A stretch of DNA of 64,000 nt, from contig LR134390.1 in the NCBI GenBank assembly GCA_900637705.1, positions 1,116,001 to 1,180,000 of the forward strand, written 5' to 3'. Shown in pieces: positions 24,536-33,957 of the stretch (position 1 is its first letter; each line of letters begins with the position of its first letter). The stretch is from Fusobacterium varium (lineage in GTDB: Bacteria; Fusobacteriota; Fusobacteriia; Fusobacteriales; Fusobacteriaceae). A model generated the notes under the pieces. The model made no database searches, was not told the DNA's origin, and saw nothing but the letters and a program-made list of their open reading frames with translations. Position numbers and translations under genes: made by a program.

Positions 24536-24567
24536 ATGGTTAATATAAATATCTTATATTAACCATT
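24536..24567 (+). repeat. Left copy of inverted repeat flanking the recombinase remnant
   Basis: 24547-24567 is the exact reverse complement of 25298-25318 (21 of 21). The left site is also an internal palindrome: ATGGTTAATATAA (24536-24548) pairs with TTATATTAACCAT (24554-24566). Because of that palindrome 24535-24548 is also a direct 14-base repeat of 25298-25311, so either an att-type direct repeat or an inverted repeat can be argued. Confidence 0.8.
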
Positions 24568-24657
24568 TCTCTTTTTATGATATCGTATTTTAAAAATAAA
24601 TCAACTATTTTTTAAATAAATCAACTATTTTCTTTCTATAAACTTAAAAATTGAACT

Positions 24658-25270
24658 CATATCTTGAATTTATCGTATACTTTATTAATCATTTCTTGCT
24701 CTATTCCTATATATTTTAATGTTTGTTCGGCAGAGGAATGATTGAATATAGACATTACAGTGCTATGTCTAAAGTACCTCTGTAAACTGTATGCCATGTT
24801 TTCTTAAAGAATGGGTCCTATAGGATATGCAATGTTTAAATCTGCCTTAGCTTGATTTAAATATTTGCTTATTGAAACAGTTGAAATAGGCTTATCAAAC
24901 AGTTCTTTTACATACTTTCTATTTAGAGATTTAAATAAAAATCCTTTTCTCCAGAGTATCCTAACGTTTCATAATACCTCTTTAATTCTTCAATTGACTT
25001 TTGACATACTGTATTCAATTTAATCTCTCTCATTTTTTAGTTTCTTTTCCTTTAATTTTACTACATAATCACTATTTATATCTTCAAATCTTATTTTAGA
25101 CAAATCAGAAATTCTTAATCAACATTTACTCCTATATTTATCAATGCTAAAATTACAACTTTATCGTTTAATTTGAAGTATTTCTTAGCTTTCTTAAATC
25201 TTCCTTACAAATATATTTAACTTCTTGTCCTCTTTGTCCATTTTTTTCTCCTTTTTTGATTTTATTGAAA
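24658..25270 (-). pseudogene. Tyrosine recombinase (integrase) remnant
   Basis: On the minus strand, pieces in different frames read like an integrase. From the N-terminal side: KGEKNGQRGQEVKYICKEDL, VVILALINIGVNV, RISDLSKIRFEDINSDYVV, FLFKSLNRKYVKELFDKP, LNQAKADLNIAYPIG, THSLRK (catalytic His-x-x-Arg box), then IFNHSSAEQTLKYIGIEQE (second His box) and KVYDKFKI with stop at 24660-24658. At least three frameshifts and several stops interrupt it, more than the single indels elsewhere, so this gene is dead. Inverted repeats of 21 bases flank it at 24547 and 25298. Confidence 0.75.
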
Positions 25271-25297
25271 ATTATGATAAATTCATCAATAGATACT

Positions 25298-25318
25298 AAT
25301 GGTTAATATAAGATATTT
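25298..25318 (+). repeat. Right copy of inverted repeat flanking the recombinase remnant
   Basis: AATGGTTAATATAAGATAT plus two T; exact inverse of 24547-24567. It lies just upstream of the recombinase remnant's 5' end. Confidence 0.8.
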
Positions 25319-25412
25319 TTATTACCTAATGAAAAAACGTAATTTAATAAAAGAAGTTGCAGCTCCTTTTAATTATTATAAGTTACGAATAAGATGAAAT
25401 TGGGAGGGAATT

Positions 25413-27215: not shown

Positions 27216-27614
27216 ATGAAAATAAAAACAACTATGTTATTAGGAGCAGCATTATTACTAGTATCAAGCGTATCATTAGCAGCACCAGCAGCAGCAGGAG
27301 TAGATTCAAGATTTTCTCAATTAGAAGCAGAATTAAAAATGCTTGAGCAAAAAGAAAATGAAAGATTTAAAGAAGAAGAGCAAATTGCAAAATCAGCTCA
27401 AAATAATTTAAATGTACTTACAAATCTTAAAAATAAATGTGAAGAAAGAATTAACTACATGACTACTATGGAAGGAAGAAGTATTTACTCTAACGAAATG
27501 AAAAACTTGTTAAAACAATATCAAGGTTTTCTTGGAGAAATAGATAAGCAGTCTAAAGTAGAAGAAAGAAAAATATTTGAATTTAATCAATTAAAAAGTT
27601 TAAGAGCAGAGTAA
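27216..27614 (+). CDS. FadA-family adhesin-like protein (second copy)
   Basis: 132 residues. Signal peptide with cleavage after about SLAAPAAA. The mature helix pair follows the FadA plan: RFSQLEAELKMLEQKENERFKEEEQIA, then a turn region, then LLKQYQGFLGEIDKQSKVEERK and NQLKSLRA at the end. It is more diverged than the copy before it and has an unusual cysteine (NKCEERI) in the middle of the hairpin, since FadA proteins are normally cysteine-poor as far as I recall. RBS AGGAGG. Probably cotranscribed with the preceding gene; two hairpins follow. Confidence 0.8.
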   Translation: MKIKTTMLLGAALLLVSSVSLAAPAAAGVDSRFSQLEAELKMLEQKENERFKEEEQIAKSAQNNLNVLTNLKNKCEERINYMTTMEGRSIYSNEMKNLLKQYQGFLGEIDKQSKVEERKIFEFNQLKSLRAE

Positions 27615-27724: not shown

Positions 27725-28153
27725 ATGAATTATTTAGACTCAAAACTAATTTTATATTTGGTAGTTATATTTTTTATAGTATTTATCTTTATTAAATTAA
27801 AAACTGCTTTAGCAATAAGGAATTTAAATAATAAAATTGGAGTGAGATTTTACTATAAATTCTTAGGAAATATGCAATGGCTGAAAGAACAGATACTTAT
27901 GGGTAAATATTTAGAAATGAAATATTTGAATGCAGTAGATGATAAAGCTAATTCAAATATAATAATATTATTAGAAAAAAAAGAAGAAAGTACTATTATA
28001 AATATTTATTCAGCCAGAAATAAAACTGTGATAATTAAGAATTTAAAATTAAATGATCAAAGATTTAAAAAATTTATTGAATTTCTTCCTAGAACACTAG
28101 CAGAAGATGATTTTTCCAAAGAAAGTGAAACAAACAACTTAGGGAGGGAATAA
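27725..28153 (+). CDS. Hypothetical single-pass membrane protein
   Basis: 142 residues. One membrane segment at about 8-26 (ILYLVVIFFIVFIFI), followed by a soluble domain with alternating strands (SNIIILLEKKEESTIINIYSA, KTVIIKNLKL) and an acidic tail. No family recognised. The stop overlaps the first base of the next gene's start (TAATG), so it is coupled to the HU-like gene. Its place between adhesins and HU-like genes does not define a job. Confidence 0.65.
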   Translation: MNYLDSKLILYLVVIFFIVFIFIKLKTALAIRNLNNKIGVRFYYKFLGNMQWLKEQILMGKYLEMKYLNAVDDKANSNIIILLEKKEESTIINIYSARNKTVIIKNLKLNDQRFKKFIEFLPRTLAEDDFSKESETNNLGRE

Positions 28154-28434
28154 TGAAAGAGAAAGATTTTATTAAAGTTTACAAAGAAGAAAGAAATTTG
28201 AAGAACTTAAAAGAAGCTCAGCATAGAATTTCAACTTTTTGGGAAACTGTAGAAGAAATATTACAAGAAGATAAAAAGTTAGTATTCAAAGGTTGGGGAA
28301 TATTTGAAATAAAACCTGTAAGAGCCAGAGAATACTGTGATCCTAGAATAAAAAAAATTAAGAAGACTTTACCTAAAAATAAATTGGTTTTCAGACAGGG
28401 AAAAATACTTAAAGAAAATATCAATGTTGACTAG
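28153..28434 (+). CDS. HU/IHF-like DNA-binding protein (first of three)
   Basis: 93 residues, the size of HU. It starts KEKDFIKVYKEERN, in the place of the HU N-terminal helices, with helices continuing to VEEILQEDKKLVFKGWGIFEIKP (equivalent to the VxLxGFGTFxV strand), then an arm region REYCDPRIKKIKKT and a closing KLVFRQGKILKENIN. It is diverged from canonical HU, lacking the NP-x-T-G arm motif. Probably binds DNA as a dimer. Overlaps the previous gene by one base and precedes another HU-like gene by 9 bases. Confidence 0.75.
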   Translation: MKEKDFIKVYKEERNLKNLKEAQHRISTFWETVEEILQEDKKLVFKGWGIFEIKPVRAREYCDPRIKKIKKTLPKNKLVFRQGKILKENINVD

Positions 28435-28443
28435 AGGGGTACT

Positions 28444-28728
28444 ATGAATAAGAAAGATTTTATTAAACTATATAGAAAAAAATTAAATAATTTAACAATT
28501 GCAGAAGCGAAAGAAGATGTAGAAGCAATTCTAGAAATTATAGAAGCTGGTTTAAAAAAAGATGGTAAAGTACAATTCTTCAATAAGGGAGTATTTACTG
28601 TTGGAAATATAAAACCAAAAACTATAAGCAATCCAAAAACTAGAGAGCTTATGCAGACAACTGAAATGAAGAAAGTAAAATTCAATGCTTCATTTAAGTT
28701 AAAAGATAAAATTCAAGATAAAAAGTAA
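28444..28728 (+). CDS. HU/IHF-like DNA-binding protein (second of three)
   Basis: 94 residues: MNKKDFIKLYRKKL, then helix AKEDVEAILEIIEAGLKKDGKV, the strand QFFNKGVFTVGNIKP, arm ISNPKTRELMQTTE (close to the canonical NPxTxE motif) and end VKFNASFKLKDKIQ. The fit to HU is better than for the gene before it. RBS GAGGGG. A terminator closes the unit about 100 bases downstream. Dedicated HU-like genes in an adhesin locus could act on local DNA topology, for instance at the inverted repeats at 29044, but that is speculation. Confidence 0.8.
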   Translation: MNKKDFIKLYRKKLNNLTIAEAKEDVEAILEIIEAGLKKDGKVQFFNKGVFTVGNIKPKTISNPKTRELMQTTEMKKVKFNASFKLKDKIQDKK

Positions 28729-29043: not shown

Positions 29044-29265
29044 GTTCTTGTTTATGTATAAATGCGAACACTTGTAGAACTTTAAAGTGTCTAAAATACT
29101 CTTTATTTCTATTAAATATATATACCATAAAAAAGTAAAATAATCAATTTTTATTTTTTAAAAATTTTTAATTTTGAAAAAAGTATATTTTAAAATTTGA
29201 ATTTAAGATTATTTTTAATAAAAGAAAAAAATTAAAAAAGTTCGCATTTATACATAAAAGAGAAC
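29044..29265. repeat. Inverted-repeat-bounded segment, candidate invertible promoter
   Basis: 29044-29069 and 29240-29265 are inverted copies of one 26-base site, 24 of 26 identical with 19 contiguous matches. Each site has its own dyad: GTTC at one end, GAAC at the other, and a central TTTAT-GT-ATAAA, as expected for a site-specific recombinase target with paired half-sites. The enclosed 170 bases are non-coding and contain a sigma70-type promoter on the minus strand. The segment lies 358 bases ahead of the autotransporter gene. In the sequenced orientation the promoter points away from it. Confidence 0.75.
29119..29147 (-). promoter_or_regulatory. Promoter inside the inverted-repeat segment
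   Basis: On the minus strand TTGATT (29147-29142), exactly 17 bases, then TATATA (29124-29119), with a TGG just before the -10 box. After inversion of the segment this promoter would read toward the third HU-like gene and the autotransporter. Confidence 0.65.
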
Positions 29266-29305: not shown

Positions 29306-29570
29306 ATGACAGAGGTTAGACTTCTTAAATTGTATAAAAAGAAGAAAAAAATTGAAAAATATAAAAAAGACAAAAAAAGAAGCTTGAATTTTTTAGAGGA
29401 TAATTTTTACAAAAATTGTTTTTGAGAAAAAAGTAACAGTAAAAAATTTTGGAACATTAAATATTTTATATATGACAAAAGAAAGAACAGCAGTGAGATT
29501 CAGAGTAAAAAATAATTTTATAGAAAAAGTGAATAACTGTAACTTATCAGATGAAACTGGGATGAAGTAA
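29306..29570 (+). CDS. HU/IHF-like protein (third of three), frameshifted or decayed
   Basis: About 88 residues if one base is removed from the A-run near 29411-29416. It then reads MTEVRLLKLYKKKKK at the start, YKIVFEKKVTVKNFGTLNILY in the middle and RTAVRFRVKNNFIEKVNN near the end, a clear HU-type strand-arm-strand pattern. As sequenced the frame stops after FYKNCF. Either a base was over-called or the gene is damaged. It is the first gene after the right inverted repeat and would be the first transcribed if the promoter segment flips. Confidence 0.55.
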
Positions 29571-29622
29571 AGTAGTCTGATAAAAAGTGCAGTTAAAATA
29601 AAATTAATGGGAGGAAAAAGTT

Positions 29623-32600
29623 ATGATTAGCAATTTTAATGAGGTGGAAAAATCTTTAAAAAGATGTCTAAAGGAGAAGATATCAATAACAACAGCTACA
29701 GTTGTAGGATTTTTGATAGCAGGAACAGTTGCATTTGGGGTAGATTATACTACCAATGAGGCTTTTTCAAGTGCAGTAAATGGAAAAGGTTCAAATTTTA
29801 ATGGATTAGAAATAAAAGAAGAATCAAAACTTGAGGGTGTTACATATGAATATAAAAAAGGAGATGGGGATACAATTAAACGTCTTATAACAGTTGAGGG
29901 AGGAAAAACAACATTAGATGAAAATACAAGTATTTCAACTGTAGAAAATATAACTTTATTAAATATATATGGAGCAGAAGTAGAAAATAAAGGGACTTTA
30001 ACAAATACAAACACTGGTGGGATGTCAACAGTTACTGTAAATGGTTTTGCAAGAGATGCTTCTTTCACAAACTCTGGAACAATAACAAAAGAAGGACAAG
30101 GAGGAGCTGCAATAGATTTAGCTGCTGGTAAAAGCACTAACACTGATGAAGTCTATACATCAACTTTTACAAACACTGGAACAATTAACGGACTTATAAA
30201 ATCTGATAATGATAAAGACGGTAGACAATTAGGAAAAATTGTTATAAACTTAAAAGATTCTTCAAGAATAAACGGAGAGTTCTCTTTTGCTGGTGGTGGA
30301 ACAAGAACAATAAATATTGATAATAATAAGGATGAGATAACAGTTAATAATACTGAAGACAATGAAACTTTTATAAAAACTAATAACAGTATTATAACTT
30401 TAAGAGGAAAAATACAGTCAAAAGGGACAACAGTAGAATTAAGTAATAGAAATGGAAATAATACTTTAACAAACTATGCTGATATAATTGGAAAAACAGG
30501 AATAGGAGTAGCAGATACAGGACAAGATACAGGTGCTGGAGCTGCAGATAGAACAGTAACAATAAAAAACAATGGAAATATTACTGCATCATTTGAAGGA
30601 ATACATAATAATGGGTACTATATGAAGCATAATAAAGTGTATATAGAAAATAATGGAAAGATTGTAGTAAATGATTTTGAAAAAGATGAGGATACTTATG
30701 ATAGACCTTATTACTATAATACAGGAATATATTCAGCATCAGCACCATATATGGAAACTCCTGGAAAAGTAGTTAATAATGGAAATATAACTATCGAATT
30801 AAGTGAAGATCAACAGAATGAATTAGAAGAAAAATATAAAGAAACAGAAGGAAAGATGTTTCTTAATATCCATGGCTTAAGACTTCATGAACATACATAT
30901 GGATACAATAATGGAACTATACTTGTTAATTCATATGGTGGTGTAGGAGTTGTACTTTCTGATCAAGATACAGGAGCAAATAAATTTGAAGATATATATG
31001 GATATTTTGAAAATAACGGAACTGTTGAAGTAAATGGAGAAAATGGAATAGGAGTACAACTTAGAAATACAAAAGGAATAACTGCTAAAAAAGAAGCAAT
31101 AAATACAGAAAAAGGAAGCATCTTAGTTTCTGGAGAGAATGCTATAGGAGTAGTAGTAGAAGGAAGCTCAACAACTTTCACAAATAATGGAACAATCACA
31201 TTAAAAGATGGAACAACTAATGGAATAGGAATTTCTATTAGTGGAGGAACAGCTATAAATAATGGTACAATAGCATTAGGATTAGGAAAAATAGAAAATT
31301 CTAATAATAATATTGCTATTAAAAATGTAGAAGGTACAGCTAAAAACACTGGTAAAATAAAAATAACAGATAAAACATCTGAAGAGTTAAAAGATTTTGA
31401 TATTTCAACTTTATTCAAGGGAAGTTATATTAACTCTGGAATGCTTGTAGACAAGAATGGAATAGCAATAGAGAAAAAGAATGATGTTACAATTAGTGGA
31501 AATACAGATGCAGGAGATATAAATAATGCAGAGAAAGAAGGAGGCAGTATAGTTTTAAAAGATAATACTACAATAAAAGGTTCAACAGACCAACCTATTA
31601 AAGTAGAATCTTTAAATGTTACAGGAACTGTCACTATTGCAAATGGAGAGAGTGGCAAAGGTGTAGAAATAGCTGGAACTACAACTAACCTAGATGTTAA
31701 TGGAAGTCTAGCAATAGGTGAAGCAGCTAGTTTAACAATTACTAATGGAACAGTAAATGCAGAAGATACTGGAACAGCAGTAACATTTGGGAATGCAGGT
31801 TCAACTTTAACATTAGCAGGAACAACTTTTAATGGAAATATAGGAACTAGTATTGACAATGGAATATTGAAAACAGAAGGAATAGAAAAAGTAACAGTAA
31901 TAACAGGAAATATTGAAGCTAAGTCAGTTGAATTAGCTGGAACAACATCAATAACTGGAGATATTGAAACTAAATCAGTTGAATTAGCTGGAACAACAGC
32001 AATAACAGGAAATATTAAAACTGAATCAATGGCTGTAACAGCTGGAGAAACTAAAATAGATGGAATAATAACAGGTGCTACAGAAATTAATATAGGAATT
32101 AATCCAGAAATTGAGCTTATTTTACTTAGCAGAGCAGCATCTACTTCTAGTAATTCAGAAAATGCAACAGTTGCATATTCAGCAGATTCAAAAATAATAG
32201 GAAAAGGTGTTGATGAAAAAACAACAGTAAATATTGGAGCTAATGGAATACTTAAAGCTGAAGTAGATAATGATGGAAAAAATCTATTTGGAAATTCTAC
32301 AGACATAGATGTAAGTGGAGATGGAACAATTCAATTTCTTGTTTCAAATGTAACTAAAGAAAACTTAGAATTACAATTTGGAACTACTGTAAATATTAGT
32401 GAGATTTCTAATATTTTAACTGATAGCGAATTTTATTCATACGATAATACAAATAAAATGTTGAGTTTTATAAAAAACAATGTAAATAATAAAGACTTAG
32501 CTGATATATATAATAAATCTTTTGTAATTAATAATGTTCTTGCTCAAACTAGAGATGCCAGAGAAGCTCAATTAGATTCTATTTATTCAAATAATGTATA

Positions 32601-33501
32601 TTCAGAAACAGTGAAAATGTCTATGGATACTTTAAGAATGAATGAAGAAGCAGTGTTGTCATTAGGAGGAAAACCAGAAGAAGGAAAATGGACAGCTCAA
32701 GGTAAAATGCTGTTTAGCAGAACAGAGTATGACAGAGATGGAAAAGTAAATAGTTATGGAGTAGAAACAAAAACAGCAGGTCTTTTAGGAGCTATGGAAT
32801 ATGGATTATCTGAAAAATCATCAGTAGGATTTGCTTTCTCTGGAACTAAACAAGACCTTGATATGAAAAAAGCAAGTGCTGATGGAGATGCTTTCTACTT
32901 TGGAGTATATGGAAAACAAGATATAAATAATTTCAAATTAACAGCAGGATTAGGATATCAGTTAAATAAAATAGATGCTGATAATGATGTAATAGTTTCT
33001 ACAGGAGATAAATATGATTCAAAAGCATTTAGTGGATATGCGCAAGGAAAATATGTAATAAATGCTGGAAATGATGTTACAGTAGAACCAAAGGTTAAAT
33101 TAGCATTGACAAGATTAACTCAAGAATCTGCAAAAGATAAACACTTTGAAATGGAAAAAGAAAACATAACAACATTTGATACAGAAGTAGGAGTAGATTT
33201 AGTAAAATCAGTAAAACTAGAAAGTGGAAAAATGAATTTATTAGCAGGAATCAGCTATACTAGAACTGTAGGTGATACAGATGATAAATTCAAAGGAAAT
33301 TTCATAGGTACTGATGGAACAAGAGGAGATAAATTTGATTTAATAGGAGCAAATTTAGGAGAAAATACATTAAAAATCAATATAGGAGCAGAAGTAGAAA
33401 AAGATAACGGATTCTTCTATAATGGTGGATTAAACTATAAATTTGACAATGAAGATAGAGAAACATTTGGAGCGACAATAGGAGCAGGATATAAATTCTA
33501 A
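29623..33501 (+). CDS. Type V autotransporter adhesin
   Basis: 1292 residues. A long signal region (residues 1-45) has a charged start then TATVVGFLIAGTVAFG, as in Fusobacterium autotransporters. The passenger (about 46-1000) is a repetitive Asn/Gly/Thr-rich beta-helix with many NNGT(I/V)- and TNSGTITxEG-type turns; around residues 760-810 a short element, KSVELAGTTxITGxI, is repeated. The beta-barrel translocator covers about 1020-1292 (starts WTAQGKMLFSRTEYD) and ends in Phe (AGYKF), the usual outer-membrane assembly signal. It probably mediates attachment or aggregation; the ligand is unknown. RBS GGGAGGAAAA. Regulation may be by the invertible segment upstream. Confidence 0.92.
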   Translation: MISNFNEVEKSLKRCLKEKISITTATVVGFLIAGTVAFGVDYTTNEAFSSAVNGKGSNFNGLEIKEESKLEGVTYEYKKGDGDTIKRLITVEGGKTTLDENTSISTVENITLLNIYGAEVENKGTLTNTNTGGMSTVTVNGFARDASFTNSGTITKEGQGGAAIDLAAGKSTNTDEVYTSTFTNTGTINGLIKSDNDKDGRQLGKIVINLKDSSRINGEFSFAGGGTRTINIDNNKDEITVNNTEDNETFIKTNNSIITLRGKIQSKGTTVELSNRNGNNTLTNYADIIGKTGIGVADTGQDTGAGAADRTVTIKNNGNITASFEGIHNNGYYMKHNKVYIENNGKIVVNDFEKDEDTYDRPYYYNTGIYSASAPYMETPGKVVNNGNITIELSEDQQNELEEKYKETEGKMFLNIHGLRLHEHTYGYNNGTILVNSYGGVGVVLSDQDTGANKFEDIYGYFENNGTVEVNGENGIGVQLRNTKGITAKKEAINTEKGSILVSGENAIGVVVEGSSTTFTNNGTITLKDGTTNGIGISISGGTAINNGTIALGLGKIENSNNNIAIKNVEGTAKNTGKIKITDKTSEELKDFDISTLFKGSYINSGMLVDKNGIAIEKKNDVTISGNTDAGDINNAEKEGGSIVLKDNTTIKGSTDQPIKVESLNVTGTVTIANGESGKGVEIAGTTTNLDVNGSLAIGEAASLTITNGTVNAEDTGTAVTFGNAGSTLTLAGTTFNGNIGTSIDNGILKTEGIEKVTVITGNIEAKSVELAGTTSITGDIETKSVELAGTTAITGNIKTESMAVTAGETKIDGIITGATEINIGINPEIELILLSRAASTSSNSENATVAYSADSKIIGKGVDEKTTVNIGANGILKAEVDNDGKNLFGNSTDIDVSGDGTIQFLVSNVTKENLELQFGTTVNISEISNILTDSEFYSYDNTNKMLSFIKNNVNNKDLADIYNKSFVINNVLAQTRDAREAQLDSIYSNNVYSETVKMSMDTLRMNEEAVLSLGGKPEEGKWTAQGKMLFSRTEYDRDGKVNSYGVETKTAGLLGAMEYGLSEKSSVGFAFSGTKQDLDMKKASADGDAFYFGVYGKQDINNFKLTAGLGYQLNKIDADNDVIVSTGDKYDSKAFSGYAQGKYVINAGNDVTVEPKVKLALTRLTQESAKDKHFEMEKENITTFDTEVGVDLVKSVKLESGKMNLLAGISYTRTVGDTDDKFKGNFIGTDGTRGDKFDLIGANLGENTLKINIGAEVEKDNGFFYNGGLNYKFDNEDRETFGATIGAGYKF

Positions 33502-33597: not shown

Positions 33598-33957
33598 ATG
33601 AAAAAAGTATTAATACTAATAGTAGCTTTATCAATGATAAGTTGTGGAAATAATTCAAAAGAAATAGATCTTTCATTATTAGAGAACAGAAGTGGAACTT
33701 TCTATGAAAAAGGAATGGATAAGCCATTTACAGGAAAAGTAACAGCTCAATATCCAGATGGACAGAAAATGCTTGAAAGTTACTGGAAAGATGGAAAGCA
33801 GGAAGGAAAACAAATCCAATACTATAAAGATGGAAAACCAAAAATAGAAGGAATATTTAAAGATGGAAAGGCAAATGGACTTATAAAAGTATATGATGAA
33901 TTTGGAAAAATAATAGTACAGGAAGAGTGGAGAGATGGAGTAAAAGTAAAAAAATAA
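33598..33957 (+). CDS. MORN2 / YwqK-type repeat lipoprotein (second in window)
   Basis: 119 residues. Signal peptide with lipobox MISC near residue 16. The mature part has three MORN2 repeats: GTFYEKGMDKPFTGKV, YPDGQKMLESYWKDGKQEGK, YYKDGKPKIEGIFKDGKANG. Shorter relative of the protein at 3290. It lies 97 bases after the autotransporter, with only a hairpin between, and may share its transcript. Coupling of MORN2 genes with large fusobacterial adhesins has been noted in comparative genomics; what the protein does for the adhesin is not known. Confidence 0.85.
   Translation: MKKVLILIVALSMISCGNNSKEIDLSLLENRSGTFYEKGMDKPFTGKVTAQYPDGQKMLESYWKDGKQEGKQIQYYKDGKPKIEGIFKDGKANGLIKVYDEFGKIIVQEEWRDGVKVKK

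Follow-up and report, generated by a model that had tools for sequence, protein, structure and literature searches.

Invertible surface-gene promoters that are operated by a single enzyme (Mpi, Tsr0667, RecV) are known, as is an invertible autotransporter switch in Escherichia coli, so that the mechanism considered in what follows is not new. In uropathogenic E. coli, ipuS/UpaE has a 260-bp invertible promoter with 7-bp inverted repeats (PMC6083910). In Clostridioides difficile the pdcB element measures 174 bp with 19-bp repeats, and strain R20291 has seven elements (PMC9286219, PMC5903667). In Bacteroides fragilis, Mpi acts on 13 regions, while Tsr0667 and Tsr19 are of the tyrosine type (PMC4747536).

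The system that we infer in Fusobacterium varium and its close relatives resembles each of these in part. With ipuS/UpaE it would share an invertible promoter before an autotransporter operon and FimB-size tyrosine recombinases, some of them distant (PMC6083910), but the E. coli system has one autotransporter switch with short repeats, whereas the genome studied here has 26-bp sites, about 20 switches, and overlaps that have diversified between elements. Like the RecV-type system it has several promoter elements of similar size spread through the genome, a tyrosine recombinase and a reference sequence often in the OFF state (PMC9286219, PMC5903667); the C. difficile elements, however, serve diverse targets, and the 23 pairs of this genome largely serve one autotransporter family. 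The likeness to B. fragilis lies in one enzyme acting in trans on many surface-gene promoters (PMC4747536), although Mpi is a serine enzyme working mainly on capsule loci, and phylum, site sequence and targets all differ.

As far as the literature searched shows, what is new is the Fusobacterium system itself, its focus on autotransporters, and overlaps that are diversified yet matched pairwise. We found no paper on Fusobacterium invertons in the open-access literature searched, though the 2019 PhaseFinder survey may list some of these loci in its supplement, which lay outside that search. A preliminary description of the locus, made from the sequence alone, knew of no such switch for a fusobacterial autotransporter, and none came to light in that literature. 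F. varium Fv113-g1 was reported to have 44 autotransporters and 13 FadA paralogues, the same gene families as in the genome studied here; the main text of that paper makes no use of inversion, recombinase, promoter or phase variation (PMC5720691).

The F. varium/ulcerans group carries more autotransporters than most bacteria and has been linked to gut inflammation, and the regulation of these proteins is open. A shared inversion system, if true, would explain how many related adhesins can coexist, why most of them could be silent under culture conditions and how differences between cultures of one strain may arise, and it would allow adhesin expression to be read off ordinary DNA reads.

The element at 29044-29265

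The window analysed here is a stretch of 64,000 nucleotides, positions 1116001-1180000 of a single-contig genome of 3.30 Mb (G000:C1); its features are collected in Table 1. The preliminary description had placed inverted copies at 29044-29069 and 29240-29265, and these coordinates are exact: the copies match at 24 of 26 positions across a non-coding spacer, and the internal dyad GTTCnnnTTTAT-GT-ATAAAnnnGAAC is present in both arms. With up to three mismatches allowed, the site pattern occurs at these two places only in the whole window, where 0.02 would be expected, and none of 100 shuffles reaches it.

The leftward promoter inside the element was correctly located but is not strong, as had been claimed. 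Its agreement with the sigma-70 consensus, 8 positions of 12, is moderate and falls under the cut of our promoter scan (9/12); the same hexamers with the same spacing are found in four of five homologous elements. A rightward 9/12 match lies at 29577-29604, and matches of that quality occur in the window at about the chance rate (nine seen, 7.3 expected).

Table 1. Features of the two invertible elements and their surroundings (window coordinates)
Feature	Position	Strand	Remarks
Second inverton, left site (27 bp, different family)	24538..24564	+	GGTTAATATAA-ATATC-TTATATTAACC
Second invertible segment	24565..25300	.	Recombinase gene and outward promoter; orientation differs between species
Second inverton promoter (TTGATT-N16-TATCAT)	24577..24604	-	Faces away from FadA operon here; faces it in G025 and G027
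Wreck of FimB-size tyrosine recombinase gene	24660..25236	-	tblastn about 55% identity to intact 198-aa enzyme; stops, frame shifts
Second inverton, right site	25301..25327	-	GGTTAATATAA-GATAT-TTTTATTACCT
FadA-family adhesin	27216..27614	+	Operon behind second inverton; PF09403, E=9.9e-28
HU-like gene pair (93 and 94 aa)	28153..28728	+	End of upstream lipoprotein/FadA operon; PF00216, E=1.5e-11 and 4.2e-17
Left recombination site	29044..29069	+	Arm GTTCTTGTTT, overlap ATGTAT, arm AAATGCGAAC; site model from 81 pairs
Invertible segment	29070..29239	.	170 bp between sites; exchange inside overlaps (inferred)
Predicted promoter (TTGATT-N17-TATATA), OFF orientation	29119..29147	-	Directed away from autotransporter
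Right recombination site, inverted	29240..29265	-	Same 6-bp overlap, ATGTAT on - strand
Broken HU-like gene	about 29306..29570	+	Between switch and adhesin; no ORF of at least 60 aa
Autotransporter (1292 aa), switched gene	29623..33501	+	Pfam PF03797, E=8.5e-30, residues 1035-1264
MORN-repeat lipoprotein	33598..33957	+	Behind autotransporter, in putatively inserted cassette; PF07661

Among the features that mark an inverton are a promoter between inverted repeats beside a gene, and the occurrence of both orientations with collinear flanks. The first is present at 29044-29265, with the promoter predicted and not mapped; the second is seen between species and between paralogues, not within one strain. 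We regard it as very likely that the element is an inverton governing whether the autotransporter at 29623 is on or off, a judgement drawn from sequence, in which switching in live cells, promoter activity and the dependence of expression on orientation are inferred. The original proposal of an invertible promoter sequenced in its OFF state thus remains the best reading, given a reversed homologue in the relative G025, a genome-wide family of sites and a rule of overlap identity, each described below.

On this model a tyrosine recombinase would bind both 26-bp sites, each made of a 10-bp arm (GTTCnnnTTT), a 6-bp overlap and the mirrored arm, and strand exchange inside the overlap would flip the segment between them. 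As sequenced, the promoter points leftward and the adhesin would be OFF; after flipping it would read through an HU-like remnant into the adhesin. The preliminary description had expected the flip to turn on a third HU-like gene together with the adhesin, and only the part on the adhesin survives from that expectation, since here the HU-like gene is a wreck: compared with the intact 106-aa gene of G025 and G026 it has a 45-base gap and frame-changing indels. Switch, broken gene, adhesin and MORN lipoprotein make up a cassette at about 28.88-34.24 kb that G025 and G027 lack at the orthologous place, and which was therefore either inserted or lost.

A genome-wide family of sites

The preliminary description had pictured a single switch and had proposed a search for further copies of the 26-base site. 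The reading as a switch stands, but the element is not alone. The site pattern has 49 matches per strand in the genome (control, 0), and inspection of every place resolves them into 23 inverted pairs, with four sites left single. An autotransporter follows within 950 bases downstream in 19 of the 23 pairs, and HU-like genes are found at two more. Pfam autotransporter hits in the genome number 36, the giant ones of 2.7-3.4 kaa being without a site. Spacing is 151 in most pairs, and the inner segment of this common class holds a near-consensus promoter, TTGACT-N17-TACAAT or TATAAT. The F. varium group is thus probably able to switch many of its surface proteins individually.

Among 61 Fusobacteriaceae genomes the sites are carried only by the window genome and its close relatives G025, G026 and G027, the last being F. 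varium Fv113-g1. Relaxing the pattern so that the central 8 bp may take any sequence yields the same four genomes (reversed control, 0), and the exact pair pattern has no match in GTDB genome contigs. A lone IMG/VR match to the site (L120) lies inside a phage gene and was rejected as chance.

The single sites at 595782 and 2105540 each consist of two outer half sites with the inner segment gone, and look like deletion scars. At 595782 the flanks are identical to those of the intact element 3064001 at 234 of 259 and 159 of 161 positions, and the 151 bases between the sites of the latter have been lost. Such a scar is what misaligned sites would leave if they rarely underwent exchange, or what some other deletion between sites would leave.

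Candidate recombinase

The genome encodes one serine recombinase of 450 aa, eight intact tyrosine recombinases and one wreck; two are of FimB size. A 189-aa FimB-size enzyme was rejected as the main candidate because it is found genus-wide, independently of the sites. The search for an intact recombinase that the preliminary description had called for leads instead to a 198-aa tyrosine recombinase encoded at genome position 358177-358773 on the minus strand (PF00589, E=4.2e-22). Its relatives at the level of at least 75% occur only in the same four site-carrying genomes, and its copies in G027 lie at coordinates matching those on the Fv113-g1 plasmids AP017969 and AP017970. The catalytic residues R44, K68, H146, R149, H172 and Y181 are invariant in ten homologues, and the predicted fold resembles the Xer, Tn1549 and lambda integrases. 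The enzyme thus has what defines the FimB/RecV-size type: about 200 aa, a Phage_integrase domain and catalytic R-K-H-R-H-Y. No inverted site was found around its gene, which adjoins no site at all, and a scan of GTDB genome contigs for the recombinase returned just one clostridial protein, 25% identical.

The 23 pairs would stand under a shared enzyme, most probably this distant recombinase. That it is the enzyme of the site family, acting in trans, we consider likely, with the assignment made by co-occurrence only and the activity inferred. Some of the HU-like pairs may assist the switch as accessory proteins.

A second inverton upstream

Another inverton, at 24538-25327, lies 3.7 kb upstream of the first element and before the lipoprotein/FadA/HU operon. 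At the orthologous locus its segment is co-directional with the operon in G025 and G027 and opposite in G026 and in this genome, with 87-92% identity when the segments are compared in the proper relative orientation versus about 50% in the wrong one, and with sites and flanks collinear. Coming from truly orthologous places in four species, this comparison is the cleanest evidence of inversion. G025, G026 and G027 all have the recombinase inside the segment intact at this locus, and it is broken in the window genome only; the window copy was accordingly ruled out as an active enzyme. Two FadA genes of Fv113-g1 were reported to have high constant expression (PMC5720691), and the second inverton of that strain is in the ON orientation. 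The connection between those genes and this locus is a lead only, resting on locus-tag numbers placed by rough proportion.

Orientation among homologues

The preliminary description would have been refuted if the other orientation were never seen, and across species it is seen; the comparison is between species only, not between strains. At G025 2099442, a homologue of the 29044-29265 element, the inner segment matches at 146 of 172 positions (85%) when reversed versus 57% when direct, between collinear flanks (79% identity on the left, 63% on the right). Its promoter faces the intact HU-like gene and an autotransporter, which is the ON state. This homologue sits elsewhere than the orthologous place, which has no cassette in G025. 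Homologous segments at G025 2279891 and at G026 218373, 108402 and 44397 are in the direct orientation. The autotransporter element at G026 958543 is flipped relative to its paralogues (112/140 reversed versus 92/112 aligned direct; scores 157 versus 59), and at G026 3783353 the segment is reversed beside a gene-side flank matching at 106 of 110 positions, with a decayed promoter.

Orientation was called only where both promoter and gene side were clear. Fifty of the 52 callable autotransporter elements are OFF and two ON, and HU-only elements divide into eight OFF and five ON; in the window genome all 19 callable autotransporter elements are OFF. Switching may accordingly be an infrequent or strongly biased event, or one that lies dormant in culture.

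An inverton now frozen, with intact sites and a dead switch that leaves the adhesin permanently OFF or under another promoter, would fit these 19 uniform calls, and would fit equally the wrecked state of the linked recombinase and the broken HU-like gene behind the switch. Near-perfect sites and overlaps at 23 pairs, however, need either continued use or very recent loss, and an intact recombinase of the same family persists at 358177-358773. We therefore hold a dead switch to be improbable, though not negligible, and retain the reading of a working inverton.

Overlap identity within pairs

Across 81 pairs from the four genomes the arms (GTTC...TT/AA...GAAC) are constant, while the central 6 bp come in 10 kinds. 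These central bases are identical within 80 of the 81 pairs, whereas shuffling partners within genomes gave 35 on average and never more than 48 (5000 trials, the reverse complement also being scored as a match). Because related elements are not independent, the shuffle count cannot be taken as a strict probability. Before these statistics five false pairs from relaxed matching were removed by hand, because they were overlapped by a better-matching true pair or had no partner, which introduces a slight bias toward the matched count. Site position 10, directly left of the overlap, does not track pairing, which sets the overlap length at about 6 bp; position 17 tracks it partly. Several overlap changes must have happened in both sites of one pair. 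The lone mismatched pair, at genome 1564473-1564649, has ATACAT against ATCTAT, and its autotransporter is frame-shifted into two ORFs.

Inverted arms around a 6-8 bp overlap that is identical between partners are the mark of tyrosine recombinase sites, and all pairs but that one carry it; such pairwise matching is a requirement of strand exchange by these enzymes. Since the overlap differs among element groups, exchange should take place largely between the ends of a single element or between elements that share an overlap type. That one trans-acting tyrosine recombinase serves about 20 autotransporter switches in each genome of the F. varium/ulcerans group, with the 6-bp overlaps as address codes that prevent recombination between elements, we put forward tentatively, as a proposal with somewhat less than an even chance of holding in full. 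How tyrosine recombinases keep numerous target sites separate could be studied in these overlap types as a natural experiment.

The palindromes could instead be paired operators at which a DNA-binding regulator loops or represses the promoter without any inversion. Every site is a near-perfect palindrome, the spacing is very regular, and nearly all elements are oriented alike relative to their gene, all of which such a regulator would accommodate. Operator binding, however, does not require overlaps to match within pairs while differing between them, and it leaves unaccounted for the homologous segments reversed between collinear flanks, the scars from which a segment is cleanly gone, and a promoter that in the common orientation is directed away from any gene; we give this explanation very little credence.

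The hix sites have a 12+2+12 layout. A serine-invertase switch like that of Hin or Mpi, in which 12-bp half sites would enclose a 2-bp overlap, is hardly credible, for although our site also divides 12+2+12 and many overlaps differ at the central two bases only, other overlap types differ at further positions yet still match within pairs, so that the exchanged region is 6 bp and not 2, and the sole serine recombinase found in the genome (one hit) is of the large type, leaving both the 2-bp overlap and the small serine recombinase of such a switch wanting. Inversion by a tyrosine recombinase remains the preferred reading.

Overlap type also goes with state: seven of ten callable elements with A/T-only overlaps are ON and none of 55 with other overlaps, related copies again not being independent. 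Every callable ON element is A/T-only; examples of A/T-only elements are genome 3056156, G026 2467943 and G027 719361.

Genes beside other elements

Behind some elements lie polysaccharide-type genes, chain-length-determinant-like and MBOAT-like by the look of their sequences. Elements of this kind are at 885563 in this genome, at G025 271343 and 2372032, and at G027 1096384, and their promoters are mostly decayed. Autotransporters split into two or three ORFs stand behind intact switches at genome 932960-936572 and 1831868-1835119. Many switches (L051, L117, L145 and similar loci) follow a repeated gene set of an initiator-like protein, an IstB/DnaC-like ATPase (PF01695) and two small proteins, which suggests a copied or mobile cassette.
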